A stretch of DNA of 23,199 nucleotides from positions 1 through 23,199 of the IMG/VR virus record IMGVR_UViG_3300036985_003028; one strand, 5' to 3'. A model generated the notes under the pieces. The model was not told the DNA's origin, ran no database searches, and was given only the letters and a program-made list of their open reading frames with translations. Shown here one piece after another: positions 4,965-20,342 of the stretch. The stretch is from a virus. Positions within the stretch are counted from its first letter, which is position 1. The number at the start of each line of letters is the position of its first letter. Made by a program: the position numbers and the translations under genes.

Positions 4965-5465
4965 TTACAACACCCATCCGATAAAATTTGCGTTTGAATC
5001 CGGATATACATCAGCGTTTGAATTTTGATTATATTCAGGAAATAAAGCCTGATTGAAACACATATAATCTATAAATCTATTTGTATAAGATTGTGCAATA
5101 TCACGCTCTTTTTCAATAAGAAAATCTATTTCGTTTTTCTCTACGTTTGAACTTGCTTCAGAAGAATGTTTAAATACACCTTTGTTAGCTATCGTATAAG
5201 CTGCGTAAGGCAAAAACTCTACCATAGACCAATGTATTACCATAGGCTTAATATAAGTGCTTAAAAGCGTTGTATATGGTGCTTCTAAATCACCCGAAAC
5301 TATATCATCATTAATCTTATTAAATAATCGAGTACCAAGATAATTCTGAATATGAATATCCTGAGCAATCTTAATGTATTGAATAAATTTATCAGTATCG
5401 ATGTTGCCATTTAAAGCAGTAAATTTTACAATATCATCACGTGTTATAAAAAGTGCCTGTGCCAT
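4965..5465 (-). CDS. Putative head-tail connector protein (DUF6712-like)
   Basis: The 166-aa, mostly helical protein begins MAQALFITRDDIVKFTALNG and contains IAQDIHIQNYLGTRLFNKI, a pattern I associate with Bacteroidota phage connector proteins placed after the portal. Such proteins form the ring between portal and tail. A helical bundle with a long central helix is expected for gp6-type connectors. It starts three bases after the portal stop. There is no TM segment or signal peptide. The assignment rests on position and general resemblance, so a different minor virion role is possible. Confidence 0.55.
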   Translation of the reverse strand: MAQALFITRDDIVKFTALNGNIDTDKFIQYIKIAQDIHIQNYLGTRLFNKINDDIVSGDLEAPYTTLLSTYIKPMVIHWSMVEFLPYAAYTIANKGVFKHSSEASSNVEKNEIDFLIEKERDIAQSYTNRFIDYMCFNQALFPEYNQNSNADVYPDSNANFIGWVL

Positions 5466-5468
5466 TTG

Positions 5469-7265
5469 TTAGTTTTTAAATCCCATTTTATCCCAATATT
5501 CTTGTGTATATCCTTTTGTCGGCATATCAGCAGGTTTCATTGATACTTCTTTTTCATTTCTGATTCTGTATCCGTACTTTTCAGCTATTGCGTTGCTTAA
5601 TGGTTTTGCAGTTCCACTTGTTGGGTCTACTTTTACACCTTGTAAATTTGCATATGTTCTACGTAACCATTTATGCTCACATCTTGGGCCGCCCTTGTAC
5701 AACCATATAGAATAATTAGCAGCGCCATTTTTACCAAACCCTGCATTTACTGCAAAATTCTCCATATCAATTATATCTTCTTTACGATATACTTTATCAG
5801 CATTTAACATTTTATTGCAAAATTCTCTTTCACCGGTTAAATTACCACTATAAACGTAACGTGTAATAAAGTTTACACCATCAATTACTTTATCTTGCTC
5901 AGGGCTTTTAATGTTTGGTCTTGCAGTACCTGTACTAACAAACTTCCATACCTTAGATAAAAGTGATTTATCTTCTTTTTTCTGATTAATAAAGTTTATT
6001 TCAGCATCTAATTCTTCTTCTGCATCGTAATCAACTTCCGTTTCATCAATCATTAACCATTCTTCACCTAATACTTCGCCTTTGTTTATTAATTCATCAG
6101 CTATAGATTCAGAACTTAAACAAGTGTGTGAACTTAAACCTGTTTCTTCTGCTACTTGCTCCTGATTTTGTGTGTTTTCTAAATCAGTAAATTCTAATGG
6201 CTGAATAGTTTTAAAGTATAATTTTAATGAAATATCATTTATTGCTAAAATTTCATCTAAAGCAGAACAAATTTCTTCTTGGTATGGTTTAATTACAATA
6301 TTGTCAAACAACAAAGTAGCAGTTTTAATTTCATCTGCATTATTACCTAATCCACCATCACCTGTACGTACTCCTAATAACATAGGTGAAGTAACACGAT
6401 GTCCTACAATTAGTTTTTCAAAACATTCTTTACTTAAGTATTCGTAGTGTGCAGGTGCATCAGTTAATGGTAAATCATCTACTGTAGTTTTACTTTCTGC
6501 ATTGTTGTTAAAAGCTATAATTACTTTTTCACCTTTAGCACCGGTTACTTTACTAAGCACATCACGCTTAATGCTATCACGCATTTCTTCAGAAGGTACA
6601 CCATTGTTAAAATTGATAACCTTAGTTCCGCTAAATCCGTTAGCAATATCGTTAATTAAATAATCACCTATTGATTCTTCTAAATAAGCATAAGGCAAAG
6701 CACCACTATAATCTATTGGTGTATAATAATGAAACCCTGAAACGTATGGTTTAACAATATAAATTTCTACTTCGTTTCCGTTACCGAATCCAAATGCAGG
6801 AATTTTTTTAGGTTCTTCGCTTGGCTTTTTCTTTGTCCAATCAGGGTAATAATACCACGCTTCAATTTCGCCTTTATCGTTACATTTTTCAGCTCGTAAA
6901 GTATGCATAGGAAAGTGAGAAATAGATTTAACTAACTTCTTTTCCATTACAACTTGCATTGCAGCCATTCCTAATAACTTGCGTTCTAATGCTACCTTTT
7001 TTAAACAATCAGGTTTAATTAAAGAAACCATTTGTGCGTACTCATTCGGCTTTTTATTAGCATCTAATGCGCTGATTCCTTTTCCGTATATCATATTAGT
7101 AATACCGGTAATAATAGCACCATTCGATGTACTATAAAGGTATCTATCGATTAAATACTGAAAGTAGTTATTATCGTTTCCGTACTCGATGTAATTAGCT
7201 TTTTTATTCTCCTTAATTTCGGGTGAAGTATAAGCCGATAAATTAACAACTGAAATATTATTCAT
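5469..7265 (-). CDS. Portal protein with extra C-terminal domain
   Basis: The 598-aa protein has a portal-like core over about residues 20-360: NYIEYGNDNNYFQYLIDRYL, then SNGAIITGITNMIYGKG, then a wing/stem region with GHRVTSPMLLGVRTGDG, then the long helix near IVIKPYQEEICSALDEI. The portal forms the dodecameric vertex through which terminase pumps DNA. After an acidic linker (about 400-430) a separate domain follows (about 465-545) with EFCNKM (Cys483), YRKEDIIDMENFAVN and WLYKGGPRCEHKWLRR (Cys529, His531). Cys and His suggest metal binding, but this is inference. It overlaps the upstream gene by 8 bases. Its position after the capsid gene, not next to terminase, is unusual. Confidence 0.85.
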   Translation of the reverse strand: MNNISVVNLSAYTSPEIKENKKANYIEYGNDNNYFQYLIDRYLYSTSNGAIITGITNMIYGKGISALDANKKPNEYAQMVSLIKPDCLKKVALERKLLGMAAMQVVMEKKLVKSISHFPMHTLRAEKCNDKGEIEAWYYYPDWTKKKPSEEPKKIPAFGFGNGNEVEIYIVKPYVSGFHYYTPIDYSGALPYAYLEESIGDYLINDIANGFSGTKVINFNNGVPSEEMRDSIKRDVLSKVTGAKGEKVIIAFNNNAESKTTVDDLPLTDAPAHYEYLSKECFEKLIVGHRVTSPMLLGVRTGDGGLGNNADEIKTATLLFDNIVIKPYQEEICSALDEILAINDISLKLYFKTIQPLEFTDLENTQNQEQVAEETGLSSHTCLSSESIADELINKGEVLGEEWLMIDETEVDYDAEEELDAEINFINQKKEDKSLLSKVWKFVSTGTARPNIKSPEQDKVIDGVNFITRYVYSGNLTGEREFCNKMLNADKVYRKEDIIDMENFAVNAGFGKNGAANYSIWLYKGGPRCEHKWLRRTYANLQGVKVDPTSGTAKPLSNAIAEKYGYRIRNEKEVSMKPADMPTKGYTQEYWDKMGFKN

Positions 7266-7599
7266 AAATTATAAATTCATTAGATGTTGCGTGTTGTACG
7301 TAAACACCCTGATTAATTGTATAAGTAGCTGTAGATTGATTTGTACACATCACTTTATCTCTATAAACGACATTAGAGCCATCAAAACAAGTTAAAGTAT
7401 ATGTATGCCCATCTACTAAAAATTCAAAGCTTAAATCTTCTTGAAATTGCAACCAATACTTTTCTTTAACAAGTAATGGATTTTCTATTTCGTGTTCTAC
7501 GTTTGTCAGTTCATTCAAGAATACCATAGAAGTAATATTACAACTACGTGGCATAAACTTAAAATTTTGGTTGTATGTAGAATCCTTTAAAACTATCAT
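7258..7599 (-). CDS. Hypothetical structural protein, 113 aa
   Basis: The frame is open from 7680, but I place the start at the ATG at 7599 (MIVLKDSTYNQNFKFMPRSC). The first 27 codons of the longer frame lie across a rho-independent terminator hairpin, whose sequence would encode the implausible RVALCCPFYF. The 113-aa product looks beta-rich, with KEKYWLQFQEDLSFEFLVDG, DKVMCTNQSTATYTINQGVY and the end SNEFIIYE. I do not recognise a named domain. Similar small beta proteins occur between capsid and portal genes in related phages, so a decoration or connector role is possible. It overlaps the portal start by 8 bases. Confidence 0.75.
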   Translation of the reverse strand: MIVLKDSTYNQNFKFMPRSCNITSMVFLNELTNVEHEIENPLLVKEKYWLQFQEDLSFEFLVDGHTYTLTCFDGSNVVYRDKVMCTNQSTATYTINQGVYVQHATSNEFIIYE

Positions 7600-7641
7600 T
7601 CTATTTTTTATTAAATAATAAATTAAAGTCGAAATTGTTTT

Positions 7642-7673
7642 AAAATAAAAAGGGCAGCACAAAGCCACCCTTT
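7642..7673 (-). terminator. Rho-independent terminator
   Basis: On the minus strand the sequence is AAAGGGTGGC, loop TTTGT, GCTGCCCTTT, followed by a T-rich run (TTTTTATTTT). The ten-pair stem has two G-T wobbles. It lies between the 124-aa gene ending at 7696 and the ATG at 7599. No obvious promoter separates it from the next gene, so partial readthrough is expected. Confidence 0.85.
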
Positions 7674-7695
7674 CAATCAAACAAAAAACAAATTA

Positions 7696-8070
7696 TTATA
7701 TAGAATCTATTTTAGAACTAAAAGATGATATAGTACTTTTCATTAAATTATATGATTTTATACTATCTTGATAATATTTATAAGTTGTATCTAAATTAGG
7801 TGGCAAAGCAATGCCTAAATCTTTAGCCATAATTTTAGCTTTGTCAATTTGGTCAATTACACTTTTAGCACTTAAAATAGATTTATCAAGTATCTTACTT
7901 CCATTATCTAAAATAGAAATAGCTTTTGTAATTTCAGCTATAGCAGAATCTTCAATTTTATCAGTTTCAATTCTTGATTTATTAATATCATCAACTAAAC
8001 CTAATTCTACTTTTTGTGTAGCCAATTCCGTTTTGAATAATTGACTAAATACTAATTTTTCAGTACTCAT
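7696..8070 (-). CDS. MSTEKLV-type helical protein, paralogue of the gene at 10256-10621
   Basis: The 124-aa protein is almost entirely helical and polar. Its N-terminus MSTEKLVFSQLFKTELATQK matches, nearly residue for residue, the N-terminus of the 121-aa product of 10256-10621. Both also carry a mid-protein K-(D/E)-LGI-x-x-P motif (residues about 84-91 here). The remaining sequence has diverged widely, so this is an old duplication. It lies between the tail-tube-like gene and a strong terminator. Function is unknown; an abundant assembly or virion-associated role is suggested by location in the capsid expression block. There is no TM segment or signal peptide. Confidence 0.85.
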   Translation of the reverse strand: MSTEKLVFSQLFKTELATQKVELGLVDDINKSRIETDKIEDSAIAEITKAISILDNGSKILDKSILSAKSVIDQIDKAKIMAKDLGIALPPNLDTTYKYYQDSIKSYNLMKSTISSFSSKIDSI

Positions 8071-8082
8071 ATCTTATTTGAA

Positions 8083-8625
8083 TTAATCAGTAGTAATAAC
8101 TGTAAAACCTACTTCAGCTAAAGTATCACCTAAGAAGTTAGCAGGTACACGTTCCATTCCTTTTAATTCTAAAGTATATCCTGATAAATCACCCATAGCA
8201 GTTCCTGATACAATTGTACCACCTACTACATCCATTCCGTGTTCTAATCCACAGAAAAAGAAGTTACCATTGTTATCTTCTACAATTACTTGTGGTCGCC
8301 CATAAGCAAGTAGTTTAATTTGTTTGTGTGTTGTAGCATCTAAACTTTTCAATTGAAGTTTTACACTTTGGTCAAAGAAAGTAGTACCATTTTCACGTGA
8401 AGAAGTAATAGTTTGGTCAAAGCTATTCGTTCCTTTTAATTCATATCTGTAAGCATTAGGTGCTACGGCAGGGTCACCAACACCGGTAACGGTATCAATA
8501 ATATCAGTGCTTCCTGAATAAGTGTATGAAGCAACTTCGCCCCAATTCACAAAATAAGCAGCTTTCAAACCGCCCACCGCATCTTTACAGACTTCTAACC
8601 TTCCGAGAGTAATATCACAAGCCAT
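8083..8625 (-). CDS. Putative major tail (tail tube) protein
   Basis: The 180-aa protein begins MACDITLGRLEVCKDAVGGL and appears beta-rich, with alternating strands (YRYELKGTNSFDQTITSS, VKLQLKSLD, GYTLELKGMERVPANFLG). Its size and all-beta character fit phage tail tube proteins, and this N-terminal pattern is common in Bacteroidota siphophages right after the capsid gene. The 118-base leader holds the capsid terminator and an 11-13 base palindrome. Placement of a tail-tube gene here, far from the other tail genes, is odd. It might instead be a head decoration protein. There is no decisive motif, so the role is inferred from fold impression and position. Confidence 0.55.
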   Translation of the reverse strand: MACDITLGRLEVCKDAVGGLKAAYFVNWGEVASYTYSGSTDIIDTVTGVGDPAVAPNAYRYELKGTNSFDQTITSSRENGTTFFDQSVKLQLKSLDATTHKQIKLLAYGRPQVIVEDNNGNFFFCGLEHGMDVVGGTIVSGTAMGDLSGYTLELKGMERVPANFLGDTLAEVGFTVITTD

Positions 8626-8647
8626 CGTTATATTTTTTTTATAAGTT

Positions 8648-8660
8648 ATTGATAATCAAT
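8648..8660. promoter_or_regulatory. 13-base palindrome, possible operator
   Basis: The sequence ATTGATAATCAAT is a perfect inverted repeat around one central base. It lies between the capsid terminator and the start of the 180-aa gene at 8625. It could be an operator for a dimeric regulator. In A/T-rich DNA a repeat of this length may also arise by chance. Confidence 0.25.
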
Positions 8661-8690
8661 TAATTATCTTTTTCTATTTAAAGTATTAAT

Positions 8691-8726
8691 AAAAAAAAAG
8701 GTGATGTTTATTCCACCACCCTTTTC
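8691..8726 (-). terminator. Rho-independent terminator after the major capsid gene
   Basis: On the minus strand AAAAGGGTGGTG is followed by a short loop (GAATAAA) and CATCACCTTTT, then a run of T. The stem pairs with one bulged G and one G-T wobble. It begins about 18 bases after the capsid stop codon. This is typical for a highly expressed capsid gene followed by less expressed genes. Confidence 0.85.
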
Positions 8727-8743
8727 TTGTTTATTTATTATGA

Positions 8744-9691
8744 TTATGCAGCAGGAGTGTACAATACAATTTCACTACCGATTCCGTATTGAACAGAAGC
8801 AGTAAATCTCATTACAACTCTTACATTTTGTGAACCATCGATTGGACTCATATCAATCAATTGAACTTCATTTTGGTCTGAAAGCAAACCTGTACCGAAG
8901 AACAAATTAGATTTTTGTGCAGCCATAACGTAATCATCAGCCATACCTTGTGCTACGAAAATTTTAATTCCGTCAAAAGATAAACTTCCGTTGTTCCACC
9001 ATTGTGTACCCATAGCGTTAGTACCATTAGCGCCTAAACCTGAAGCTCCAAACCCACCCAAAGCACGTACATAAGCACGAGCAGCTGATTGTGAAACGTA
9101 CAAGTATAAATCTTCTTTACCATACAATGCAGCAGGAATAGCATCTACAACTTTTCCAAATTCAGCAATTACGTTAGCAGCAGTAATACCACCCGAAGCA
9201 GGAGAAGCTACATCAATAACAGTAGCATCAGCAGTAGCAAGTGTAACAAAACCTGCAAATTCACCGGCATTAGCAGTAACACCTTTCCAAATGTTTTGCT
9301 CAGTTTTTTCAGCAACTTTAGCAGCTACGTGTGCGATTAAATAATCTGCAAATGAAGGTGGCAAATTATCAAAAGCTGAATAACCCATTGTAATCGCTTC
9401 CCAAGTTTGGTGGAAGTCTTTTTTACACAATTGTAAATTTACCTGAAATTCCTCAGGGGTAATTACTCTTTCAGTTAATGTAATTGTAGAAGTAGCGTCA
9501 AAATCACAAGTAGCATCTTTTACGATACCATCTGTAGCGATTCTTTGGATTACTTGTTTGTATTTTACATTAGGTAAAACCTCGATTCCACCATTAGCAA
9601 TAGTAGAACCTGATAATAATGCAGCTGAAATGTATTTCCCTGCAAATTCACCTGCATAAGTTGGTGAAGTAATTGTAGTAGTAGTAGCCAT
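8744..9691 (-). CDS. Major capsid protein (HK97-fold)
   Basis: The 315-aa protein follows the scaffold-like gene and is itself followed by a strong terminator, the usual place and setting for the capsid gene. Seen: a Thr-rich N-terminus (MATTTTITSPTYAGEFAGKY), a central helical region with PSFADYLIAHVAAKVAEKTEQNIW that resembles the HK97 spine helix, Ala/Gly-rich turns, and a C-terminal beta segment (SQNVRVVMRFTASVQYGIGS) as in P-domain strands. It forms the icosahedral shell. There is no separate delta domain, consistent with a separate scaffold gene. The start at 9691 follows an A-rich leader. Family assignment is by context and pattern. Confidence 0.85.
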   Translation of the reverse strand: MATTTTITSPTYAGEFAGKYISAALLSGSTIANGGIEVLPNVKYKQVIQRIATDGIVKDATCDFDATSTITLTERVITPEEFQVNLQLCKKDFHQTWEAITMGYSAFDNLPPSFADYLIAHVAAKVAEKTEQNIWKGVTANAGEFAGFVTLATADATVIDVASPASGGITAANVIAEFGKVVDAIPAALYGKEDLYLYVSQSAARAYVRALGGFGASGLGANGTNAMGTQWWNNGSLSFDGIKIFVAQGMADDYVMAAQKSNLFFGTGLLSDQNEVQLIDMSPIDGSQNVRVVMRFTASVQYGIGSEIVLYTPAA

Positions 9692-9698
9692 TTTTTAT

Positions 9699-10244
9699 TT
9701 AGTTAAAAAGTTTAGACATTACGACATCTTGTGTAGACATTTGTCTATTAGATGAAATTTTAGTTAATTTTACATTTGAAGTAACTTCAGGAGAGTGTGT
9801 TAATGGTTCAACAACTAAATCTGAACTTAATTCTTCTTTAGAAACTTTTACTGATTTTAATTCAGCAATTTCCGCACGTAGTTTTTCAATTTCAGAAAAG
9901 AACATTTCTTTAGTAATTGATTCTACTACACGTTTAGGAGCAGCTGCTTGTGCTTCAACTTCTACTTCCACTTCAGGTGCTTCAGTTTCTGCTTCAGGCA
10001 TTTCTTCTTCAGGCATTTCAATAGCAGCAATAATACCTTCTACTTCAACTTTTAAAACGCTTCCGTCTTCAAGTTTGTATTCCCCGACAGGCATTGCAAT
10101 TCTATCTTCACCATTTACGATGAATACGGCAGCTTCAGGTTCGAATGCTTCTGCTTCGATAACTGTAACACCATCTTCAAGTTTCATTTGGGCAAGTTTT
10201 ACTTCCATTCCCAAAAGAGTTTTGATTTCATTAATTACATTCAT
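9699..10244 (-). CDS. Putative capsid scaffold protein
   Basis: The 181-aa protein has an N-terminal beta-like part (AFEPEAAVFIVNGEDRIAMP and VGEYKLEDGSVLKVEVEGII, about residues 33-72), a strongly acidic and Ala/Pro-rich linker (about 77-103) and a coiled-coil segment (ITKEMFFSEIEKLRAEIAEL, about 110-129). Acidic, coiled-coil proteins directly before the capsid gene are typically scaffolds removed by the prohead protease, which is encoded three genes upstream. The C-terminus MSTQDVVMSKLFN resembles the N-terminus of the two MSTEKLV paralogues nearby. Scaffold C-termini often bind the coat protein. Low sequence complexity prevents a firmer family call. Confidence 0.65.
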   Translation of the reverse strand: MNVINEIKTLLGMEVKLAQMKLEDGVTVIEAEAFEPEAAVFIVNGEDRIAMPVGEYKLEDGSVLKVEVEGIIAAIEMPEEEMPEAETEAPEVEVEVEAQAAAPKRVVESITKEMFFSEIEKLRAEIAELKSVKVSKEELSSDLVVEPLTHSPEVTSNVKLTKISSNRQMSTQDVVMSKLFN

Positions 10245-10255
10245 ATTTACTTAAT

Positions 10256-10621
10256 TTATAGTTTAGCTGATTCAAGGTTTTTAATATACTGAGCAAAAGT
10301 TCCTTTTAACCCATCTTGAATATTTTGTTTTTGTGCGGCAATTTCAGAAGGCATTGGAATACCTAATTCTTTAACCAATGCTTCAAATTTTGCAAAAATT
10401 GGCAATGCATCTTCGTTAATAGCCTTTAGGCTTTTTAATTCGCTTACTGCTGATTGAACTGCTGATTTAGCATTATTATAAACGTCTAAACTTTTCTTTC
10501 TTGCAGCAATAGCATCATTATAATATTTTTTAACATCATCATTAATTGCCAATTCTACTTTCTGAGTAGATAATTCTGTTTTTCCAAACAAAGCGTTGTT
10601 TACTAATTTTTCAGTTGACAT
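10256..10621 (-). CDS. MSTEKLV-type helical protein, paralogue of the gene at 7696-8070
   Basis: The 121-aa protein is helical and polar, beginning MSTEKLVNNALFGKTELSTQ and containing KELGIPMPSE at about residues 88-97. It shares the N-terminal motif and the LGI-x-x-P motif with the 124-aa product of 7696-8070. It lies between the Cys-rich 51-aa gene and the scaffold-like gene, that is within the head assembly block. The central section (about residues 30-80) looks like a coiled coil. Function unknown; a scaffold partner or an ejected or internal head protein would fit. There is no signal peptide or TM segment. Confidence 0.85.
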   Translation of the reverse strand: MSTEKLVNNALFGKTELSTQKVELAINDDVKKYYNDAIAARKKSLDVYNNAKSAVQSAVSELKSLKAINEDALPIFAKFEALVKELGIPMPSEIAAQKQNIQDGLKGTFAQYIKNLESAKL

Positions 10622-10661
10622 AAGTAATTTTTTTTATATTAATAATTGTTGTTTTAAATTG

Positions 10662-10817
10662 TTATAAATTAACAGGTTCGTTACCTTGACCTACTAAACT
10701 ACCTATGCCTTGTTCGTGTAGTTTACCATTGCAGCATTTAGAGTTGTACGTATTGTCTTTACACAAACACCCACGTTTACCACCCTTTGGCGATGTTACT
10801 TTTAGTTTCTTATTCAT
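10662..10817 (-). CDS. Cys-rich small protein, 51 aa, between prohead protease and scaffold genes
   Basis: A short frame from ATG at 10817 to TAA at 10662-10664 encodes 51 residues starting MNKKLKVTSPKGGKRGCLCK. Cysteines are at 17, 19, 28 and 29 (CLC, then DNTYNSKCCNG), followed by LHEQGIGSLVGQG. The start overlaps the protease stop by 8 bases. The CxC...CC pattern with basic N-terminus suggests a small metal-binding or disulphide-bonded protein. I recall similar small proteins beside head genes in other Bacteroidota phages but know no function. It is well supported by overlap and by its strongly patterned sequence. Confidence 0.8.
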   Translation of the reverse strand: MNKKLKVTSPKGGKRGCLCKDNTYNSKCCNGKLHEQGIGSLVGQGNEPVNL

Positions 10818-11388
10818 CTTTTAGTAGTTGTTTAATTTTTTCAATCAATTCATCATCTTTAGCTTTTTGGAAATTCATTTCTACTTTATCTGAGAAATAT
10901 CCTTCAATTGAAAATCCTTTTACTTTTTTAGTTTTAACAAACTCCTGCCAAATATCTTCGTTGTTTACTTTCATAGAAACCATCCAAGTTCCTATTGGCA
11001 TTTCTAAACCATAGTTACGTGATTTGTCTACTTCACTTTCTACTATCCAAGATTCAACTACTGATAAATCTTTTAGTTTAGTATTGTGTTCTAATGTAGC
11101 ATTGTTTTGAAACCCATTCATTAAATACAATTCACTTGCTTTTTTAACCGTATCCTTAGAAAAGAAAATATAGTATTCATCATCACCACTTCTTCTGTAA
11201 ATGTTTTTATTAGGTATCAATGCAGCACCCATTAAAATTCTTTTATCAGAATCTACTTCAGCAAGTTTGATTTCTATTTCTTTATTTAGTGCTACAAAGT
11301 TTTCTTCGATAGCAGGATTTTCTACAATTGAAATTGCTTCTACACCGGTAGCTTTATCATCATCTAATATTAATTCTACGATTCGCAT
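10810..11388 (-). CDS. Prohead maturation protease, XkdF-like
   Basis: The 192-aa protein matches the XkdF-type serine protease pattern. Seen: SIVENPAIEENFVAL near the N-terminus (a motif common to phage proteases of this group), a strand with ILMGAALIPNKNIYR, TLEHNTKLKDLSVVESWIVE with the likely catalytic His101, PIGTWMVSMKVNNEDIWQEF, and VKGFSIEGYF with the likely catalytic Ser150. The family has the herpesvirus-assemblin/HK97 gp4 fold and cuts scaffold and capsid N-termini during maturation. The location just upstream of the scaffold and capsid genes agrees. The C-terminal tail (about 165-192) is a Lys/Glu-rich helix. Confidence 0.85.
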   Translation of the reverse strand: MRIVELILDDDKATGVEAISIVENPAIEENFVALNKEIEIKLAEVDSDKRILMGAALIPNKNIYRRSGDDEYYIFFSKDTVKKASELYLMNGFQNNATLEHNTKLKDLSVVESWIVESEVDKSRNYGLEMPIGTWMVSMKVNNEDIWQEFVKTKKVKGFSIEGYFSDKVEMNFQKAKDDELIEKIKQLLKDE

Positions 11389-11585
11389 ATTATTTTTCTT
11401 TTAAAATTAATTTTTATTGATTTTGTTTTAAATAGCGTTTTTTTGCGTTTTAAGGCATTTTGTTTATTTAACGTATTACCTATTATTTTTTTTTAGTTTG
11501 TTTATTAAATTAAAAATCCCTTTAAAATCAATACTTCACAACGCAAGTTTTTATTTATAGTATTTTATTTTTTAATAGTTTTTAT
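11389..11585. other. 197-base gene-free A/T-rich spacer between tape measure and protease
   Basis: I see no open frame of useful length on either strand, no clear terminator hairpin and no full TAnnTTTG promoter. The sequence is extremely A/T-rich with short T and A runs. It is the longest gene-free stretch in the window and separates the tail and head blocks, so a regulatory role is plausible but not shown. Confidence 0.4.
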
Positions 11586-13208
11586 TTATCCTAATGTAGC
11601 TGAGCGAATAATATTTCTATCTAAACTTTGTGCAGTAGTTACATTATTTGCTACTACGTAAGCTTGTACCGGTGCTTGTTCTTTACCTGCTATTGCACCT
11701 GCTAATTGATTAACACCTGTAGCACCTACTACGTTAAATTGTGGCGCATTTCCACCGCCTGCTTGTCCACTTGGTGCATTTCCACCACCTGCAGCACCAC
11801 CGCCACCTAAAGCACTTAATGCTTTTGATGTAGCAAGTATATTAGCAGCAATACCAATACCTGCACCAACTTTATTTAAAGCTAATTTAGGCCCTAAATA
11901 TAATGGCCCTGCAATTGGCCCTAATTGTGAAGCAGTAAATGTATCTGCTGCATTAGCTGACATTGTATTAGTAATAATTCTTGCAATACCTACAGCACTT
12001 TCAGCTACTAATAAACCCTTTTGTATGTCTTTATTTTTGTCAAATAATCCTTTTAATAAACTAATACCACCTTCAACTACAGAAAAAGAAGCATCTTGAA
12101 TTTCTTTTTTAGCTGCAGCTACTGCCTTTTCTTGGTCAATAATTTTTTTATTTACATCTTCTTGGTTTTTTAGTTTTATATCGTTTACTTCGTTATCACG
12201 TTGTATTTCTAAAGCATCAATTTCTTCTTTGGTTCTATTTTGTTGTTTAGCTAATTCTATTAACCTAAAATACTTATCATTTACGTTTCTTATTTCTGCT
12301 TCTGTAGCAGTCATTAAAAATTCAGATTGTTTATCTTGTGCATCACCTATAGCTTGTGTTACTTCGTTATAAGTGGTTTGTGTAGCATCTTTTTGCGCTT
12401 TTAACGCTGCTTTTAAATCTTCTAAATCTTTTCTACGTTGTTCTGCTAATTTTTCTGCTGCTTTTCTTCTTGCTTCAGCTTGTTTTTCTAATAATTCTTT
12501 TTGTTTTTCTGCTGCTTCACGTTCTGCATCAGTCATTTCTTTAGTACCTGAAATAAACCTTTTAGAAGCATCATCATAATTTTGGCTAAAACTTGTAACT
12601 GATTTTTTAGCATCTTCCCAAGCACCGCTAAAATCACCTGAAATAAGTTTTTTAACTGCACCACCTAACATTCCTAAAGATTGGAATACCGCAGACACAC
12701 TTGAATAAACTACATTAAAAGCATCAGAAACAAATGGCAATGCCTCTAAAGCTAAATCTACTAATATGTTAAATAATGGTTCAACTGCACGAAATATGCC
12801 CTGAAATATCTTCTGCATACCATTTAATAACGGCTGCAGTTTTTTCATTGCTACTTCATTATCGTTAAACGCTGCTACTAATCCCGCAACAAGTGAAACA
12901 ATTAAACCTATACCGGTAGCTTTTAATGCACCCCCAAAAGATTGTGTGGCTACTTTAGCTTTGTTTAAAGAAGCACCTAATGCACCTAAAGGACCACCTG
13001 CACTTTCTAAACTATCAATCCAATCAGAAGAAGCTGCTTTACTCGATTTAATTTTATCTTCTAAATCATCTATTTGATTATAGATTCTTTTAAAATCTTC
13101 TGAACCTGCAGCAGTTTCTTTTAACTGTCTTTTTAAGTCTTTTAAGTCAGCAATAGATTGGCCTAAATTACTTTTTACTTCTAAATCAACTTCTATTTTT
13201 TCTGCCAT
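11586..13208 (-). CDS. Tail tape measure protein
   Basis: The 540-aa protein has the classic tape measure make-up. Seen: an N-terminal coiled coil (about residues 15-60, SIADLKDLKRQLKETAAG), a hydrophobic helix (about 97-114, GIGLIVSLVAGLVAAF), further hydrophobic stretches (about 128-185), a long Lys/Glu/Ala coiled coil (about 225-380), and a Gly/Ala-rich C-terminal part (about 455-490) with SALGGGGAAGGGNAPSGQAG. It sets tail length and is ejected with DNA. At roughly 1.5 angstrom per residue, a known rule for siphophages, it predicts a tail near 80 nm. The start overlaps the upstream gene by 16 bases. Confidence 0.9.
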   Translation of the reverse strand: MAEKIEVDLEVKSNLGQSIADLKDLKRQLKETAAGSEDFKRIYNQIDDLEDKIKSSKAASSDWIDSLESAGGPLGALGASLNKAKVATQSFGGALKATGIGLIVSLVAGLVAAFNDNEVAMKKLQPLLNGMQKIFQGIFRAVEPLFNILVDLALEALPFVSDAFNVVYSSVSAVFQSLGMLGGAVKKLISGDFSGAWEDAKKSVTSFSQNYDDASKRFISGTKEMTDAEREAAEKQKELLEKQAEARRKAAEKLAEQRRKDLEDLKAALKAQKDATQTTYNEVTQAIGDAQDKQSEFLMTATEAEIRNVNDKYFRLIELAKQQNRTKEEIDALEIQRDNEVNDIKLKNQEDVNKKIIDQEKAVAAAKKEIQDASFSVVEGGISLLKGLFDKNKDIQKGLLVAESAVGIARIITNTMSANAADTFTASQLGPIAGPLYLGPKLALNKVGAGIGIAANILATSKALSALGGGGAAGGGNAPSGQAGGGNAPQFNVVGATGVNQLAGAIAGKEQAPVQAYVVANNVTTAQSLDRNIIRSATLG

Positions 13209-13345
13209 TTTATTTCCCTTTTAATTTGTTCAAATCCTTTTTTAAATGTTGTAGGCAGTTCATATTTGCCTTTAGCAATTTCTATTAATTCGCTTTGTCC
13301 GTAATGCTCTGTGCATTGCAGTAGTTCAAATATTTTTTTAAGCAT
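13193..13345 (-). CDS. Small hypothetical protein preceding tape measure, 50 aa
   Basis: I place the start at the ATG at 13345 (MLKKIFELLQCTEHYGQSEL); the longer open frame begins only with a TTG at 13378. The 50-aa product is basic and helical, ending REIKWQKK. It overlaps the upstream tail gene by 8 bases and the tape measure by 16. Direct juxtaposition with the tape measure suggests a tail assembly role, but no domain is recognisable. Confidence 0.7.
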   Translation of the reverse strand: MLKKIFELLQCTEHYGQSELIEIAKGKYELPTTFKKGFEQIKREIKWQKK

Positions 13346-15710
13346 ATTGTAGTACAGGTATTTGTATGATTGTTCCAACTCCGTTTTTAAAATATTCCAA
13401 CACTACTACATCACTTCTATCAGCAGCAGTAGCATTGGCAGGTATAGTTACATCTAATAATATATCAGCATCGTTATCTGTTGTTAATGCATAGCTTAAA
13501 AAGTCTGTAGATAGCTTTACATCAAACGTATCGTAGTTATTCTTGTAAATTATAAACTGAACTTCTTGCGCAGTATTATCTACTTGTAAGAATGGTATAT
13601 TTGAAAAGCGTAAATAGGTGGTATCTTGCGTTATATCCCTAAAATCGTTTAGTAGTTCTAATTCTACTTCACTTGTTGTTAAATCAGTTGTAAGTGTGTT
13701 TATAATGTATCTTTTATTAGAAACTATTATCCTATCATTTAACTTTAAAGAAGATAGCAAATAAGGATTGAAATTACCTTTTACTTTTAGCACCCTTGTG
13801 CGCTGATTGTATAGGTTGTTTATGTATTGGCTATAAAATTGCTGATACAATCCATTTGGTGCAAATGTTAAATTCCAAACTGAATTTTCTACACCCCAAT
13901 TTAAAGTCTGTAGGTAAGATAAATCTGTAGCTGCTAATGGTATTTCGTTTGAGAATCTTACATAAAAATCAGAATTTAAACTAAACCCTAATCCATTATT
14001 CATATACCAATTAGAACTTAAATTAGTCATTCCATTGTTATACATTAAAACAGGTTTAGGTGTGTATGGTTGTAAATCTTTATTCCAAAACGTAGTAGTT
14101 AAAAAATTCTCACCTGTAGTACGTTCCCACATCACATCTTCAAAAGGTGTTTTAACTTCGTAATTTTCGGTAAATGCTGAATTAGGATTTTCAAAAAACA
14201 AATCACCATATTCTTGGTTATTGTTTGCGCTTCTAAATGCATTGTTTAAAACGTTTTCTGATTTCTCGTGTTTGAAGTCAATACGTTTAAATAGTTTTGG
14301 TTTGCCTATTTCTATTTCGTTTGCTTGAATAAATTTAGTAATATCTATTACTTCGCCATCTTGATACCATTTTTCTAAAGGTAAAAACTCAAATGTGTTT
14401 TCAGCAGTAGGTACAATTACCATATTAAACATTTTAACTAAACCGGTTAGAAAATCAGTAACTGTAATATCAGGTACATAGTTTCTAATGTTTAAGTTAG
14501 CTAAAGTAGTTTGTGATGTTCCAAACGCTACGTGTGAAGCATTATAAATATCACCATCAATTATTTTAGTATATGAACTAATTATTTCACTTGTGTATGT
14601 TACCGGTGCAGAATCTGAATTAACAAAAAATGTAAAATTGTAAACATCAGTAAAAAAATCACCTACATTTAAAAACCTTAATGTTTGTGTTCCACTTTGA
14701 TTTAAGAAACTAACAAATGGTTGGCCGTTATTATAAACGTGTACGTTGTAATCTGTGGAACTTGTATTTATTTTTATAGAAAATCTATTTGATTGTGGAA
14801 AGTCAGTAATGTAACTGCTAAACCATTCCATATAAATTTGTCTACGTTGTACGTTTAAAGTATCAGTAGTTAAATTGTATTCAGTTCCTGCGGCAGGTGT
14901 ACCTGATTGGCTTGTTAAATTAACTCGCATCATTTCAGTTGCAACCCTTAATGTTTCAGCATTTTTACAATATAAATATAATTTGCTAAAAGTTTCACTA
15001 TTTAGAAACTCACCCGTAAAAGTCAATCCGTATGCTGCCTGAATATACTCAATAACCTTACTAATTTTAATTGCGGGAAATAATTCTCTATAATCTATAC
15101 CACCTGTTGTTAGTGTAATATCATTATCTACATCGGCAGTATCAAATTCAAACCTACGTGTACTACCTGCTAAAGGAAAACATACATTTGAATTAAAACC
15201 ACCTTCAGCTCGTGTAAAAACATTATCTAAATTATATTCAAAATTTAATTGATTGTAATAGCTTACGTTATTTACGTTTGCTAAACTATTTAATTTATCT
15301 TCTTTAAATTTGTCTTTTAGCTGAACTAAATTGCCTACAAAGTTTATAGTATAAGATTCTATAAATCCATTTTTCTTATTGGCCTTTTCCATTGTAAATT
15401 TACCATCACGAAAAGGAATAGTATCTATTTCAATATAGCCGTAATACTTTATTCTATGGTCGAATGCACCATCTACGTTTTGTGGTGAATCTAAATCTGT
15501 TTCACCTACTGCTGATTCGTACCAATGTTTGAAAATAGCGTTGTTATGCTTACTTGCAGGAATAGTAAACGATTGTGAATAGTCTGTAAAAAGTTTCCCT
15601 AAATCACTAAAGTTTTGAATAGAAGAAGTTACACTAATCTTTTCATCTTTGAATAATTCAATGCGATTAATTACACCATCTACGTAAATGTATATTTGTA
15701 CTGTTTGCAT
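13338..15710 (-). CDS. Large tail-tip / baseplate protein with C-terminal BACON-like domain
   Basis: The 790-aa protein starts MQTVQIYIYVDGVINRIELF. The N-terminal part (DEKISVTSSIQNFSDLGKLF, DYSQSFTIPASKHNNAIFKH, then IKYYGYIEIDTIPFRDGKFT) is characteristic of Bacteroidota phage virion proteins in the baseplate or tail-tip position. A long beta-rich centre follows with DITKFIQANEIEIGKPKLFK. The last 85 residues or so (VDNTAQEVQFIIYKNNYDTF to VTIPANATAADRSDVVVLEY and IIQIPVLQYA) match the outline of a BACON Ig-like domain (ends in I-x-V-x-Q-x-A). BACON domains are thought to bind carbohydrate or mucin. It overlaps its upstream neighbour by one base. Specific function is inferred. Confidence 0.7.
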   Translation of the reverse strand: MQTVQIYIYVDGVINRIELFKDEKISVTSSIQNFSDLGKLFTDYSQSFTIPASKHNNAIFKHWYESAVGETDLDSPQNVDGAFDHRIKYYGYIEIDTIPFRDGKFTMEKANKKNGFIESYTINFVGNLVQLKDKFKEDKLNSLANVNNVSYYNQLNFEYNLDNVFTRAEGGFNSNVCFPLAGSTRRFEFDTADVDNDITLTTGGIDYRELFPAIKISKVIEYIQAAYGLTFTGEFLNSETFSKLYLYCKNAETLRVATEMMRVNLTSQSGTPAAGTEYNLTTDTLNVQRRQIYMEWFSSYITDFPQSNRFSIKINTSSTDYNVHVYNNGQPFVSFLNQSGTQTLRFLNVGDFFTDVYNFTFFVNSDSAPVTYTSEIISSYTKIIDGDIYNASHVAFGTSQTTLANLNIRNYVPDITVTDFLTGLVKMFNMVIVPTAENTFEFLPLEKWYQDGEVIDITKFIQANEIEIGKPKLFKRIDFKHEKSENVLNNAFRSANNNQEYGDLFFENPNSAFTENYEVKTPFEDVMWERTTGENFLTTTFWNKDLQPYTPKPVLMYNNGMTNLSSNWYMNNGLGFSLNSDFYVRFSNEIPLAATDLSYLQTLNWGVENSVWNLTFAPNGLYQQFYSQYINNLYNQRTRVLKVKGNFNPYLLSSLKLNDRIIVSNKRYIINTLTTDLTTSEVELELLNDFRDITQDTTYLRFSNIPFLQVDNTAQEVQFIIYKNNYDTFDVKLSTDFLSYALTTDNDADILLDVTIPANATAADRSDVVVLEYFKNGVGTIIQIPVLQYA

Positions 15711-16810
15711 TATACTACATCGTTTATTAAGTTGTAACTATATTCAAACTCTACTTCGTAATTAATCATCTTATCCTGCAACCCTGTTTTAATTGGCATA
15801 GATTTAGTTTTGATATTTGCAGGTTTGTTATCTAATAAAATAGTTTCTGAAGCCATTAAATCAAACATTAATTCAGAATAGTTTTCATCCACCCAACCTG
15901 TATTTAGTTTTACTGATTGTGTACCTACAAAATTAAACTGCTGCGTTTGGTTTCTTAACGGATTGTAATCCCAATTATCAGGTAGTAATCTAAATTCACT
16001 ATTCTTTACTTCTATATTGTTTGTTTGTGCTTTCCAAAATGTAAGAAACTGCCACCCACCATAACGATTAATAAACGTACAAACTACAGGTGTGTATTTA
16101 CTTTCGCATACCGGTAGAAAAGTAACTATTGGAAGTTCACCTTCAAACAAGTCTGTTGTGATGTAAACATTATTCCCAAAGTTATGGCTCGAAATAGCAG
16201 CATTTTTGGCAGGTATCTTAAACAGATAGGTTTCAGCAGGGTAAGTATCATCTAAAATCACTCGTGAAGTTACACCTGTTGTGCGTAAATTCTGCCAATT
16301 TGCACGAGTTATAGATTCACCATCGTGTTCTATTAATACATTAAAGTAAGGTAATTGTAATTGTGTAGAAGCCTCGTTGTAATACTGAATAATATTCGAG
16401 TTAATTAAATACTCTACCTTATTGTTTTGCGTTTGGTTAGCACCACCTAAATAGCTTGTAAACGATTGTGTTCCCACGTATGATATGCTTCTAACTAATT
16501 CCCATTCTTTATCGCCTTCTGTATTAAAATACCATTCAGCATAAACATAAACCCACATTTGGTCGGAATCTTCAAAAGGGATATTTTCTATTACAGCACT
16601 TATAGTTTCTATTTGCTCAGCTATGTAAGGCGAAATGTTAAATACAATTATAGGAGAATCTACAGAAGGTATTTTCTTTTCAATAGTATAGGTAGCTGTT
16701 GCAGGTTGTGTTTCATTTTTATTCCAAACCCATAAACGCAATTGTGCGGCAGCTTGTCCTGCTTCATCTACTTCTATAAAATACGGTGAACGTGTATTAA
16801 TTACTTTCAT
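15710..16810 (-). CDS. Tail/baseplate structural protein, 366 aa
   Basis: The 366-aa protein begins MKVINTRSPYFIEVDEAGQA and is predicted beta-rich. Distinctive segments include IVFNISPYIAEQIETI, PVVCTFINRYGGWQFLTFWK and the C-terminal KTGLQDKMINYEVEFEYSYN. This combination is familiar from Bacteroidota siphophages, where the gene precedes the large tail-tip gene, as here. A distal-tail or baseplate hub function is likely from position but not proven. The start and stop overlap neighbours by 4 and 1 bases, indicating translational coupling in the tail operon. No TM segment or signal peptide is seen. Confidence 0.65.
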   Translation of the reverse strand: MKVINTRSPYFIEVDEAGQAAAQLRLWVWNKNETQPATATYTIEKKIPSVDSPIIVFNISPYIAEQIETISAVIENIPFEDSDQMWVYVYAEWYFNTEGDKEWELVRSISYVGTQSFTSYLGGANQTQNNKVEYLINSNIIQYYNEASTQLQLPYFNVLIEHDGESITRANWQNLRTTGVTSRVILDDTYPAETYLFKIPAKNAAISSHNFGNNVYITTDLFEGELPIVTFLPVCESKYTPVVCTFINRYGGWQFLTFWKAQTNNIEVKNSEFRLLPDNWDYNPLRNQTQQFNFVGTQSVKLNTGWVDENYSELMFDLMASETILLDNKPANIKTKSMPIKTGLQDKMINYEVEFEYSYNLINDVV

Positions 16811-17349
16811 TTCTTAATATCTTTTAAACTTGTTTTCATTAAATCTTCTACATCTAAAGCAAATCCTTTTATTAAATCTTCTGTGATGTATTTTTTATAT
16901 CCTGCTTCAAATGGTTTTGTAAAAAATAAACTTGGTCGTATACCTTTTGCATAAACACTACGTGTAATTAAAAATGCAGTAGATTCATAAGACATAAATT
17001 TACCGTCTTTTCTTTTAAATTGAATCCTACGTGCTTGTACCCACTTTTTGATTCCTTCAGTTAATCCACCTTTCTTACCTGTACCACTACCAAACTTAAA
17101 TGGTGAGTTTGGTGCTTTTAAAGAACTGAATTTACCCTTTACCCCTTTGTCTTGAAATTGTCCGTATTGTGGCATTTCAAAATAAACACCTATTGAATTA
17201 GGCATTGCTTTTACTTCGCCTTTTAATTGGCTATATAGATTGCTTGTAACGTTCTTTCCGCCTTTAGTTAAGTTAGTTCTACTTTGTTGTATTACGTAGT
17301 CTCTAAAGCGTTCTAAAGTCTTTTGTGTATGTAATAGATTGTATGCCAT
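16807..17349 (-). CDS. HK97 gp10-like tail completion/neck protein
   Basis: The 180-aa basic protein has an N-terminal helix (LERFRDYVIQQSRTNLTKGG), a strand pair (SIGVYFEMPQYGQFQDKGVK), a loop with Ser/Gly/Lys (FGSGTGKKGG) and C-terminal helices around FTKPFEAGYKKYITEDLIKG. The Y-G-x-F-x-D-x-G-V motif at about 62-70 resembles the glycine-containing core motif of HK97 gp10-like neck proteins. Those proteins join head and tail. Placement two genes after the chaperone and beside another probable tail-completion gene supports it. Confidence in the precise family is moderate. Confidence 0.6.
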   Translation of the reverse strand: MAYNLLHTQKTLERFRDYVIQQSRTNLTKGGKNVTSNLYSQLKGEVKAMPNSIGVYFEMPQYGQFQDKGVKGKFSSLKAPNSPFKFGSGTGKKGGLTEGIKKWVQARRIQFKRKDGKFMSYESTAFLITRSVYAKGIRPSLFFTKPFEAGYKKYITEDLIKGFALDVEDLMKTSLKDIKK

Positions 17350-17810
17350 TAACAGATAGTAGTGTTATTTGCAGTTTCTACATTTAGCGTAATTGTCCAA
17401 CCTACTAATTTGTTTTCAAATCTATCAGCAAATGCTTCAAAGCTAATGCTGCCATTTAATCTAAAACCCATATCGTACAAATTGCCCCTACGTAAACTTG
17501 CTATTAATCGTTTACCAACTTCTAACTGCGTGTTGAATATATCCTGCTCATTGTCATTGTCTAACCAAATATCAGTTGAATTAGCTTTAGATATATCGCA
17601 CACATCCATTAGCAAAATAGAAACGTTAAATATGTTTGTGTTTCCTGATTCAGATTCTGTTACGTTGTTTACAATAATATGCGACAAAGGAAATATAGTA
17701 GTCTTGTTTAAATCTACGTTGAATATATCACCGGTAGTTACATTGTTTACTATTCCATCTTCGTAGAGTGAATCCCTTAATACTTCGGTAACTTTATAAT
17801 ATTGGTTCAT
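17349..17810 (-). CDS. Putative tail terminator/completion protein
   Basis: The 153-aa protein shows alpha/beta character: MNQYYKVTEVLRDSLYEDGI, then TTIFPLSHIIVNNVTESESG, then IFNVSILLMDVCDISKANST and a C-terminal strand GWTITLNVETANNT. A beta strand pattern with an N-terminal helix and FPL-H motif is common in short proteins at this place in Bacteroidota phages, and small size fits tail terminator proteins. Its start shares one base with the stop of the frameshifted chaperone reading frame (TAATG), a strong sign of coupling to that frame. The role is inferred from context. Confidence 0.6.
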   Translation of the reverse strand: MNQYYKVTEVLRDSLYEDGIVNNVTTGDIFNVDLNKTTIFPLSHIIVNNVTESESGNTNIFNVSILLMDVCDISKANSTDIWLDNDNEQDIFNTQLEVGKRLIASLRRGNLYDMGFRLNGSISFEAFADRFENKLVGWTITLNVETANNTTIC

Positions 17811-18546
17811 TACTTTCTAATTTGTTGTATTTCTATTTCGTTCTTTTCCTTTTCGAATGTTAAAAATGTTAAGCAGGTTGTAAGCCGTAATTGGGAAACT
17901 TCATCGAATCTTCTAACATCTCCCTGAGCAAGGCCATAATATGAACTATACCATCCCCACTTTTTTCCAAAATTTGCTTGTCTATCAAATCCATCAGCTG
18001 CTTGTCCGTCTCCAAATAATTCAGGGTAGAGTTCAGTAATGCGTTGCCTAAATTGTAAAAAAAAACCATAGCACCTAAAGCAACTTCTAAAGGCATATCT
18101 AACATAGCATCAGAGTAAGTGGCAGAACCTTTATATTCTTCTATTAGGTACTTCTTATTCAGTTTGTTTATTACAGGTCTGTAAAGAACTGCCATAGCTT
18201 TATGCATATTATCCCAATCAGAAATATATGTTTCTAAATCGGTATATTCTCCTAAACTAATTTCATCTAAATTAGGAATGAATCCAAATTCTAAACCTTT
18301 ATGTTTAAATGTTTGAATCAATTTATAATTACCGGTAAACATTTCACCTAACTTATTTGTTATGGTTGTAATGTCTTTTAACTTCATTAACGATATTTCT
18401 TTTAACGAAACACCACAAAATATTTCTATCATCTTGTGCTGCAAAAATTCGCCTTCAGGATTATCTTTAGCTATACGTGTGAATCTTTGGTATTGTTCTA
18501 ATGTTATTTCTTTTAAAGATGTTGGTATAGATATTTCTAACTTCAT
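17810..18546 (-). CDS. Tail assembly chaperone, -1 frameshift product (245 aa)
   Basis: This is the long form of the gene starting at 18546. At T_TTT_TTT (18064-18058), after Phe163, a -1 slip leads into a frame open for 82 further codons, ending TAA at 17812-17810. That stop overlaps the next gene's ATG as TAATG. The added part reads LQFRQRITELYPELFGDGQA, then FGKKWGWYSSYYGLAQGDVR, then CLTFLTFEKEKNEIEIQQIR. It is clearly protein-like, with a WGWY...LA-GD core resembling extensions of tail chaperones in siphophages (lambda gpGT analogue). gpGT-type proteins hold the tape measure while tail tube subunits assemble. The slip and the open frame are seen in sequence; ratio and function are inferred. 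Confidence 0.8.
17869..18546 (-). CDS. Tail assembly chaperone, zero-frame product (225 aa, lambda gpG analogue)
   Basis: The short form ends at TAA 17871-17869. Seen: an N-terminal part beginning MKLEISIPTSLKEITLEQYQ, a central helical part, and MPLEVALGAMVFFYNLGNAL at residues 151-170, which contains the slip codons Phe162-Phe163. Beyond the slip it continues as NLGNALLNSTLNYLETDKQL. Residues 164-225 are encoded by the same bases as the first 62-63 codons of the -1 frame, so about 190 bases code for two protein ends. This region is richer in G+C than its surroundings, as expected under double constraint. A terminator lies upstream at 18594-18620. It probably assists tail assembly as the majority product. 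Confidence 0.8.
   Translation of the reverse strand: MKLEISIPTSLKEITLEQYQRFTRIAKDNPEGEFLQHKMIEIFCGVSLKEISLMKLKDITTITNKLGEMFTGNYKLIQTFKHKGLEFGFIPNLDEISLGEYTDLETYISDWDNMHKAMAVLYRPVINKLNKKYLIEEYKGSATYSDAMLDMPLEVALGAMVFFYNLGNALLNSTLNYLETDKQLMDLIDKQILEKSGDGIVHIMALLREMLEDSMKFPNYGLQPA
18058..18064 (-). promoter_or_regulatory. Programmed -1 ribosomal frameshift slippery heptamer
   Basis: On the minus strand the codons are GTT TTT TTT TAC. The heptamer T TTT TTT is a perfect X_XXY_YYZ slip site inside a run of nine T (18065-18057). Both tRNA-Phe molecules re-pair fully after a one-base backward slip, and reading continues TTA CAA TTT. I did not find a clear downstream stimulatory stem-loop or an upstream Shine-Dalgarno. 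Confidence 0.85.
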
Positions 18547-18593
18547 AAAGTTTTTTATTTAATAATAACTTTTATGTGAAATTGTATTAAACA

Positions 18594-18620
18594 GAAAAAG
18601 GGTAACATTTCTGCTACCCT
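18594..18620 (-). terminator. Rho-independent terminator after the 90-aa gene
   Basis: On the minus strand AGGGTAGCA, loop GAAA, TGTTACCCT, then TTTTTCTG. The nine-pair stem has one G-T wobble and a GAAA tetraloop. It closes a short unit formed by the promoter-like element at 18940-18966 and the gene 18647-18919. Confidence 0.9.
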
Positions 18621-18646
18621 AATTCCAACTATTTAACCAACTTTAA

Positions 18647-18919
18647 TTATGCTTTAAAATACTCTATCCAAAAATCCCGAAGTGATTGTGATATTTGACT
18701 ATAAGGAATCCACACATCGTTTCCTTCATTTACTTTCAACTCAATTCTACGTTCTAAGGTCATTGTAGGTAATTCTTCTACTTTGTAAATGCGTTTATAT
18801 ATGTTATCGCAAGTAAACTTATTTAACGCATCGTATACACCATCTGCTTGTATTTCTAATTCAAAATCATTGCAGTTATCTTTGTGTTCTGCGTAGTAAC
18901 TTATTCTGTATGTTCTCAT
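18647..18919 (-). CDS. Hypothetical protein, 90 aa, in its own transcription unit
   Basis: I start the gene at the ATG at 18919 (MRTYRISYYAEHKDNCNDFE). The longer open frame opens only with TTG at 18952, and its first codons overlap the candidate -7 promoter box. The protein is acidic with two Cys (about 16 and 38) and contains EIQADGVYDALNKFTCDNIY, a segment typical of small phage proteins with a strand-helix-strand layout, and ends SQISQSLRDFWIEYFKA. I do not recognise its family. With its own promoter-like sequence and terminator inside the late operon it resembles a moron, an independently expressed extra gene. Function unknown. Confidence 0.8.
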   Translation of the reverse strand: MRTYRISYYAEHKDNCNDFELEIQADGVYDALNKFTCDNIYKRIYKVEELPTMTLERRIELKVNEGNDVWIPYSQISQSLRDFWIEYFKA

Positions 18920-18939
18920 ATTATTTGTTTTTGTTTCAA

Positions 18940-18966
18940 CAAATGTAAACAAGTTATTTATACAAA
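18940..18966 (-). promoter_or_regulatory. Candidate Bacteroidota-type promoter
   Basis: Minus-strand TACATTTG (18947-18940) matches the -7 consensus TAnnTTTG of Bacteroidota sigma-ABfr/SigA. An upstream TTTG (18966-18963) could be the -33 box, but the spacer is 15 bases, shorter than the usual 17-23. It lies 21 bases before the ATG at 18919 and after the stop of the 49-aa gene. Confidence 0.5.
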
Positions 18967-18984
18967 TTACATTTTAACAAATAT

Positions 18985-19134
18985 TTAACTACTCAAATAA
19001 GCACTTGCTATTTCGTACATCTTATGCATTAGCTTTATTTCACCAATGTTTCTTGGTAAAGCTATATCTACTTCAACACCTTTAACGTGGTGTATGTAGC
19101 ATTGTATGGTGGCTATAAATTGTCCGTAGGTCAT
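18985..19134 (-). CDS. Small hypothetical protein after large terminase, 49 aa
   Basis: A short frame from ATG at 19134, sharing one base with the terminase stop (TAATG), to TAA at 18985-18987 encodes 49 residues: it starts MTYGQFIATIQCYIHHVKGV and ends MYEIASAYLSS. It is mostly helical. The junction and codon use match neighbours, so it is likely a real gene omitted by length cut-offs. Function unknown; a terminase or tail accessory is possible from position. Confidence 0.75.
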   Translation of the reverse strand: MTYGQFIATIQCYIHHVKGVEVDIALPRNIGEIKLMHKMYEIASAYLSS

Positions 19135-20342
19135 TAGTAGACAAAGTAATTACCCTTGTTTGGATTCTCTAACTGATATGCTACTGCGTAACGTAATGCA
19201 TCTATAGCGTGATTGTAGTTATCTATTGGAGTTGAACTCTTACGTTCTAACCAACTGTAGTTATTTAATTCTTTAATTAAGTCTATACTTTCTTCATCTA
19301 TTACTAAATCGTAATCCTGCAATAATGCTATTCCATACGTTACACTACCTGCTCCTTTAATTGTAGGTACAATGTTATTACCTTTTGCTTTTAGTTCAGA
19401 TATTAATCGTGGTTCTGCACAATCAGCTACTATTAAACTATCACCTGCAAACTGCACGTTTAAATTGAATATGTGCGATGTTTGTAACCCTGTTTGATAT
19501 ATGTGCTGCCTAACGTAAATTCGTTTGTTAGAAGCGTCTATATTCGTTTCTATTAATGTAGTAGGGTCTGAACTGAAACCAAAATCTTGACCGAATACAG
19601 ATTTACCTATTTGTTGAAACTTACCTATTGACCAATTTGTAAATATTACACCTTCTGCTTTATCTAACCAACCACCAAGTATTTGATGTTTGTATTTTTC
19701 AGGCCTACGATTTTTTATAGTTTCTATTTGCTCTAAATAGCTTTTGCTTAAATTGTCTATGTTATCTAAATAAGTAGAATGTATGTAGGTTGTATCTTGC
19801 TTTGTTATGCATTGTCCTGCTTCTATTCCTTTACCTTCAAAGAAGCGTTTATATATCCAATGCTCTTTAGTTGTAGGATTCAGTATTAATATTACCCTAT
19901 TGTCTTTGTCCTTTTGTCTTACTGATAAATCTATTTTGTCAAATGTGTTTTCATCTGTTAGTTCTTCAGCCTCATCTAATACCCAAGTAGTAACACCTTG
20001 AATAGATTTTAGGTTTGCAGTTTGGTCGCCTGATGATGTTTTAATTCCACGAAATAGAATTTTACTACCGGTTTGTTTATTTATAATTTCATCTTTGGTA
20101 ATGTAAAAGTCATTAGTAATGTTTAATGCTTCTAACTTTTCTATAAATTCGGGAATGATTGAAATAGTAGCTGAACGTAAAGTGTAACGTGTAAATAGAA
20201 TTATATGCCCTACTTCATAAGTAAGAAGTGATAGCAGTAAATTTATTGAATATGATTTACCACTACCACGCCCACCTGTAACTATAAAATAACGTGAATC
20301 TACTTCACCGATTACTTTATATTTTTTGTTTATGTCTACCAA
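19134..20342 (-). CDS. Large terminase subunit (PBSX XtmB / Terminase_3 family)
   Basis: The 402-aa packaging motor has an N-terminal ATPase with Walker A GGRGSGKS (23-30), Walker B VLDEAEE (Asp123, Glu124) and coupling motif LNPT (154-157). The C-terminal RNase H-like nuclease shows the three expected acids: GQDFG (Asp253), VADCAE (Asp307) and HAIDALRY (Asp381). Order and spacing fit the PBSX XtmB-type family. It cuts concatemers and pumps DNA through the portal. The frame has no ATG near the N-terminus: the only plausible start is TTG at 20342, one base after the small subunit stop, indicating translational coupling. Length is normal for the family. Confidence 0.95.
   Translation of the reverse strand: MVDINKKYKVIGEVDSRYFIVTGGRGSGKSYSINLLLSLLTYEVGHIILFTRYTLRSATISIIPEFIEKLEALNITNDFYITKDEIINKQTGSKILFRGIKTSSGDQTANLKSIQGVTTWVLDEAEELTDENTFDKIDLSVRQKDKDNRVILILNPTTKEHWIYKRFFEGKGIEAGQCITKQDTTYIHSTYLDNIDNLSKSYLEQIETIKNRRPEKYKHQILGGWLDKAEGVIFTNWSIGKFQQIGKSVFGQDFGFSSDPTTLIETNIDASNKRIYVRQHIYQTGLQTSHIFNLNVQFAGDSLIVADCAEPRLISELKAKGNNIVPTIKGAGSVTYGIALLQDYDLVIDEESIDLIKELNNYSWLERKSSTPIDNYNHAIDALRYAVAYQLENPNKGNYFVY

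Follow-up and report, generated by a model that had tools for sequence, protein, structure and literature searches.

A conserved nine-T run and a dual-coded C-terminus in a putative tail assembly chaperone gene of a widespread phage group

How could a single phage gene supply two proteins that begin alike and end differently, and would their ratio be set at the ribosome or at the RNA polymerase? The question is raised by a gene on the minus strand of a 23,199-base IMG/VR virus record, called here the window, to whose full stretch all window coordinates refer; the window genes and slip-site features described below also lie on the minus strand. The zero-frame ORF (17869..18546) encodes a short product of 225 aa and contains a run of nine T (18057..18065), read GTT TTT TTT TAC in the zero frame, with the heptamer T_TTT_TTT, a possible ribosomal slip site, lying in frame inside it (18058..18064). 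From 18058, the -1 frame stays free of stops for 82 codons up to a TAA at 17812..17810, and this extension (17810..18058) would provide the WGWY...FEKEK domain of a 245-aa product having residues 1-163 in common with the short one. The zero frame, meanwhile, reaches its own stop at 17871..17869 after a further 62 codons beyond the slip, giving a dual-coded overlap (17872..18057) in which the -1 frame would be read too, while the stop of the extension overlaps the start of the next gene, with its ATG at 17810, in a TAATG (17808..17812). An earlier note, made from the letters of this DNA alone, had described the slip site within nine T, the 82-codon extension ending in TAATG, and the 62 further zero-frame codons, and all three were confirmed, with every coordinate correct.

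One gene with two ends

The same arrangement was found in 435 distinct relatives in all scans, down to about 25-30% identity, with the frame relation always -1 and the in-frame T_TTT_TTT always present (435/435); this count leaves out four loci that end before the slip (L453, L454, and the L465-L467 group). Hundreds of relatives came from viral contigs, by zero-frame protein scans and by extension scans separately, so that the homologues of the extension that the earlier note had proposed to search for do exist; assemblies of bacteria and archaea yielded 9 more, and whole genomes a few. Every locus of the first two scans had both halves, the -1 relation, and the heptamer, and although one seed peptide covered the FF site in some scans, those with all seeds outside FF gave the same result. 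Among annotated phages, the sole matches were the Nonlabens phages P12024L/S, at 29-30% identity, and neither a nucleotide search of annotated phages nor a search with the -1 extension, tblastn included, gave any match. P12024L has the T9, and its halves are annotated as two separate hypothetical proteins, gp40 and gp41; likewise, in PHROGs the halves make up two families, phrog_32199 and phrog_38404, neither with a function, and hence the suspicion that annotation had missed the extension was well founded. Three assemblies labelled Pseudooceanicola, Euryarchaeota, and Epsilonproteobacteria (L250, L251, and L248) carry the phage module on short contigs, which probably belong to phages and were assigned to a wrong host in binning.

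In the annotation of P12024L, the second half begins at an internal ATG, as would be expected if the two halves were separate genes and the -1 ORF were translated from its own start. In the window, however, ATG, GTG, and TTG are all absent from the -1 frame, both in the extension and in the stop-free stretch that precedes the slip, and a separate gene with a normal start is therefore impossible there; in the relatives, an ATG lies between the slip and the WGWY motif in only 8/309, and any common start in 47/309. An internal start was rejected on these counts. Moreover, in a distant prophage-like locus (L549), both halves form one uninterrupted ORF on the minus strand, a version of the 245-aa product, whose alignment spans the slip position (hhalign probability 96.6, E 5e-10), and this continuous ORF argues that the fused product is a real protein. 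Two separate genes are, therefore, a very improbable explanation. The L549 ORF lacks the T9, which means that the frame change disappeared from this lineage or arose in the other one. As independent evidence for the fusion, the Foldseek targets common to the separately predicted halves, whose models are moderate (mean pLDDT 79 and 76), were single viral proteins, A0A516L611 and A0A6J5N0W0 among them. Judging from these sequences, we consider that the -1 extension is a real part of a programmed frame-change product.

The overlap itself was examined in 42 representatives, where both frames are open in 42/42. Zero-frame synonymous codon identity was 1.79x expectation in the overlap vs. 1.08x before the slip, and -1-frame synonymous codon identity was 1.48x in the overlap and 1.24x in the unshared tail. 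When codons were resampled with the zero-frame amino acids fixed, the -1 frame acquired a mean of 5.4 stops and was open in about 0.4% of the draws, and with the -1 amino acids fixed, the zero frame acquired a mean of 3.6 stops and was open in about 1.3%, whereas the real sequences have none. The synonymous conservation, which the earlier note had suggested testing, together with the resampling, thus indicates that both C-termini are selected, bearing out its proposal of two useful C-termini; selection acts on both readings of the 62-codon overlap, and neither frame is open by accident. Across the relatives, the zero frame continues for 16-88 codons after the slip, with one case of 7 and modes at 25, 39, 62, 67, and 84. 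This tail length is constant within clades and different between clades, as if the overlapping tail had come about through shifts of the stop codon.

Length of the T run and route of the frame change

On runs of 9 A or T, slippage of bacterial RNA polymerase, whose hybrid measures 9-10 bp, is efficient (PMC5009743); in IS elements, conserved nine-A runs are used for transcriptional slippage, and Baranov and colleagues used under-represented runs to find hosts whose RNA polymerase slips on nine (PMC1088944). We propose that in the present phage, a Bacteroidota siphophage, the standard message would give the 225-aa form, while slippage of the RNA polymerase on the nine-T run would leave a fraction of the messages with one additional U, and these, read normally, would enter the -1 frame and yield the 245-aa form with its longer C-terminal domain. 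One inserted U and a ribosomal -1 slip yield the identical fusion peptide, and in most relatives a one-base deletion would bring the protein to its end within 2-3 codons.

A ribosomal -1 slip needs seven Ts, but the run is of nine in 422/435 relatives and of ten in the other 13/435, with no T7 or T8 among the 435; T9 is also found in L464 and in the very remote L551, both outside this count. The usual codon register is xTT TTT TTT Txx, and the 435 divide into 421 in register 1, 13 in register 0, and a single one in register 2. In 8 sequences, the codon following the FF site has no T at its start (GCT, GTT, or CTG), and in 8/8 of them the preceding codon is TTT and the run is still nine, whereas L400, the third register, has GGT (Gly) before and TTG after, again with nine. 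The register-0 T9 state requires 6 changes on a tree of 120 representatives, at least 5 of them forced by well-supported branches; we relied on this tree count since the Fisher test (p about 1e-11) takes no account of relatedness. Register-0 T10 forms, which could be intermediates, do occur, and T8 forms do not. A run of nine in all three registers means that the length of the run is conserved, beyond what the heptamer or the residues alone would account for.

Homopolymers are error-prone and mutable, and a sequencing error, a pseudogene, or DNA-level phase variation at the T run might be suspected. Nevertheless, the same arrangement recurs in 435 sequences, which derive from numerous independent samples, from a phage isolate, and from bacterial genome assemblies, indel variants are absent, the T10 relatives keep the zero frame through substitution, and both frames are under selection as described above, all of which makes this kind of explanation hardly credible.

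Long runs are avoided elsewhere: the neighbouring coding sequence, 107.7 kb in all, has 0 A/T runs of at least 9 vs. 11.5 expected from codon resampling, and 5 of at least 8 vs. 30.5 expected, although replication slippage can be another reason for such avoidance. The slip site is the sole coding nine-base run in the window. Two other nine-base A/T runs (8691-8699 and 11486-11494) are both intergenic. No conserved RNA structure was found near the slip by single folds, an alignment fold, and shuffles, all in pseudoknot-free models, and an Rfam search gave no match; given that lambda works without a known RNA structure, the missing structure is weak evidence. A possible SD-like AGG, which precedes the run by about 10 nt, was also considered and was set aside because the distant clade does not keep it.

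The earlier note had likened the strategy to that of lambda gpG/gpGT. The main rival explanation, in the lambda style, is purely ribosomal -1 frameshifting by the tandem slip of two Phe tRNAs at T_TTT_TTT, in which case the extra Ts would come from protein constraint or from a more slippery U9. Ribosomal -1 shifting is the established mechanism for tail chaperones (PMC5009743), and the in-frame heptamer inside every T9 makes ribosomal slipping possible in every relative. The residues flanking FF are, moreover, for the most part V/L/I and Y/W, with codons that contribute extra Ts, so that a demand for hydrophobic or aromatic side chains around FF could maintain part of the run. A purely ribosomal slip fits poorly with the lack of any seven- or eight-T run, with the preservation of run length in the other registers, as in L400 with its Gly codon, with the finding of no other slippery heptamer as a replacement in any frame-shifted relative, and with the lack of a detected stimulatory structure. 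We therefore regard an exclusively ribosomal frame change as a possible but doubtful explanation: the programmed -1 frame change stands, and the ribosomal route alone is probably incomplete because the run is of at least nine in any register. The invariance of T9/T10, the three registers, the avoidance of runs elsewhere, the lack of RNA structure, and the published threshold of nine lead us to favour transcriptional slippage at T9 as the probable main route, while ribosomal slippage on the embedded heptamer may add to the 245-aa form, with both machines acting together.

A separate observation concerns Flavobacterium phage 6H (L395, ~10048-10927, minus strand), where AGN89393, a structural relative by Foldseek, ends in CFFYSTR and has T6C in place of T9, and where an unannotated downstream -1-frame ORF fills the roughly 300-base gap after it; this phage may use another frame-change signal.

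Position in the tail module and probable role

The gene stands first in the tail module, preceded by the large terminase subunit (19134..20342, PF04466) and a small ORF, and lies upstream of a tape measure candidate (11586..13208), which matches phrog_32985 (E 6e-17) and, weakly, the phrog_24 tape measure (E 0.0019). Five ORFs lie between the two, the first being the next gene (17349..17810), which encodes a 153-aa tail-module protein of unknown function (phrog_30964), and a tube candidate also lies downstream of the slip gene. In L549, a tape measure gene (phrog_58, E 1.4e-6) is found three genes downstream of the fused ORF. The gene order over 4965-20342 of the window is unusual: candidates for the protease, scaffold, capsid, tube, and portal come after the terminase, the chaperone gene, and the tail genes, although head genes normally precede tail genes.

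Pfam and NCBIfam gave no credible family for the slip gene, phrog_166 ('tail protein') matched weakly in 5/42 representatives, Foldseek returned one named chaperone at E 0.068, a PDB fold search with the zero-frame model gave nothing, and a profile search against PDB sequences gave nothing credible. Since no family model names a chaperone and the gene order is unlike that of lambda, we infer this role, as we do the site of slipping in the RNA polymerase and the ratio of products. By position and architecture, the two products are most likely a gpG/gpGT-like pair, and the tail assembly chaperone identity given in the earlier note is to be taken as quite likely, plausible on these grounds and not proven.

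Taken as a whole, the evidence inclines us, by a modest preference, toward a large phage group, widespread and infecting Bacteroidota and marine bacteria, in which an obligatory T9 would set the ratio of the tail chaperone products through the RNA polymerase and not the ribosome, and in which the dual-coded C-terminus would reach a length of about 88 codons at most. The obligatory T9, its independence from codon register, and the long dual-coded tail are new, and so, likely, is the use of RNA polymerase slippage, no report of which for a tail chaperone was found in the literature searched, an absence that is not a proof. In practical terms, the annotation is corrected for a gene present in hundreds of phages, in which two 'unknown' families are the two ends of one product pair, and the relatives provide a deep, naturally occurring record of how selection acts on the length of a T run. 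If the T9 reading is true, a conserved structural-gene ratio would be set at the RNA polymerase, not at the ribosome, and would be predicted to depend on the RNA polymerase of the host.

Comparison with known systems

Frame-shifted tail chaperones are a known kind: lambda has one, and others are discussed in PMC3711429 and PMC10885494. Lambda gpG/gpGT shares with the present gene the making of two products from one gene by a -1 frame change, in the tail module and with the tape measure downstream, while family libraries detect no sequence similarity between them. In contrast, lambda slips at GGGAAAG, after which G has 5 more codons, vs. 62 here, so that the overlap was rightly called long, and its frame change is ribosomal, whereas we propose slippage of the RNA polymerase as the more probable route here. 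Besides, lambda has the tail tube gene directly upstream and the tape measure directly downstream; here, neither holds, and the tail tube and head genes are downstream of the slip gene. In phage P2, too, the overlap of E/E' is longer and lies at a T-rich site. Another close likeness is P12024L gp40/gp41, with homologous halves, T9, the -1 relation, and a position directly after the large terminase, although its zero frame runs on for only ~25 codons after the slip. The dnaX gene of Thermus thermophilus likewise has a nine-T run in the coding region and two products (PMC5009743), but it encodes a cellular polymerase subunit whose standard frame gives the long product, whereas in this phage gene the slipped message would give the longer one. 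Finally, IS elements share a conserved ORF overlap and a conserved nine-base run as a sign of use (PMC1088944), with the difference that theirs are A runs in transposases, while here a T run lies in a phage tail-module gene whose dual-coded overlap is under selection.
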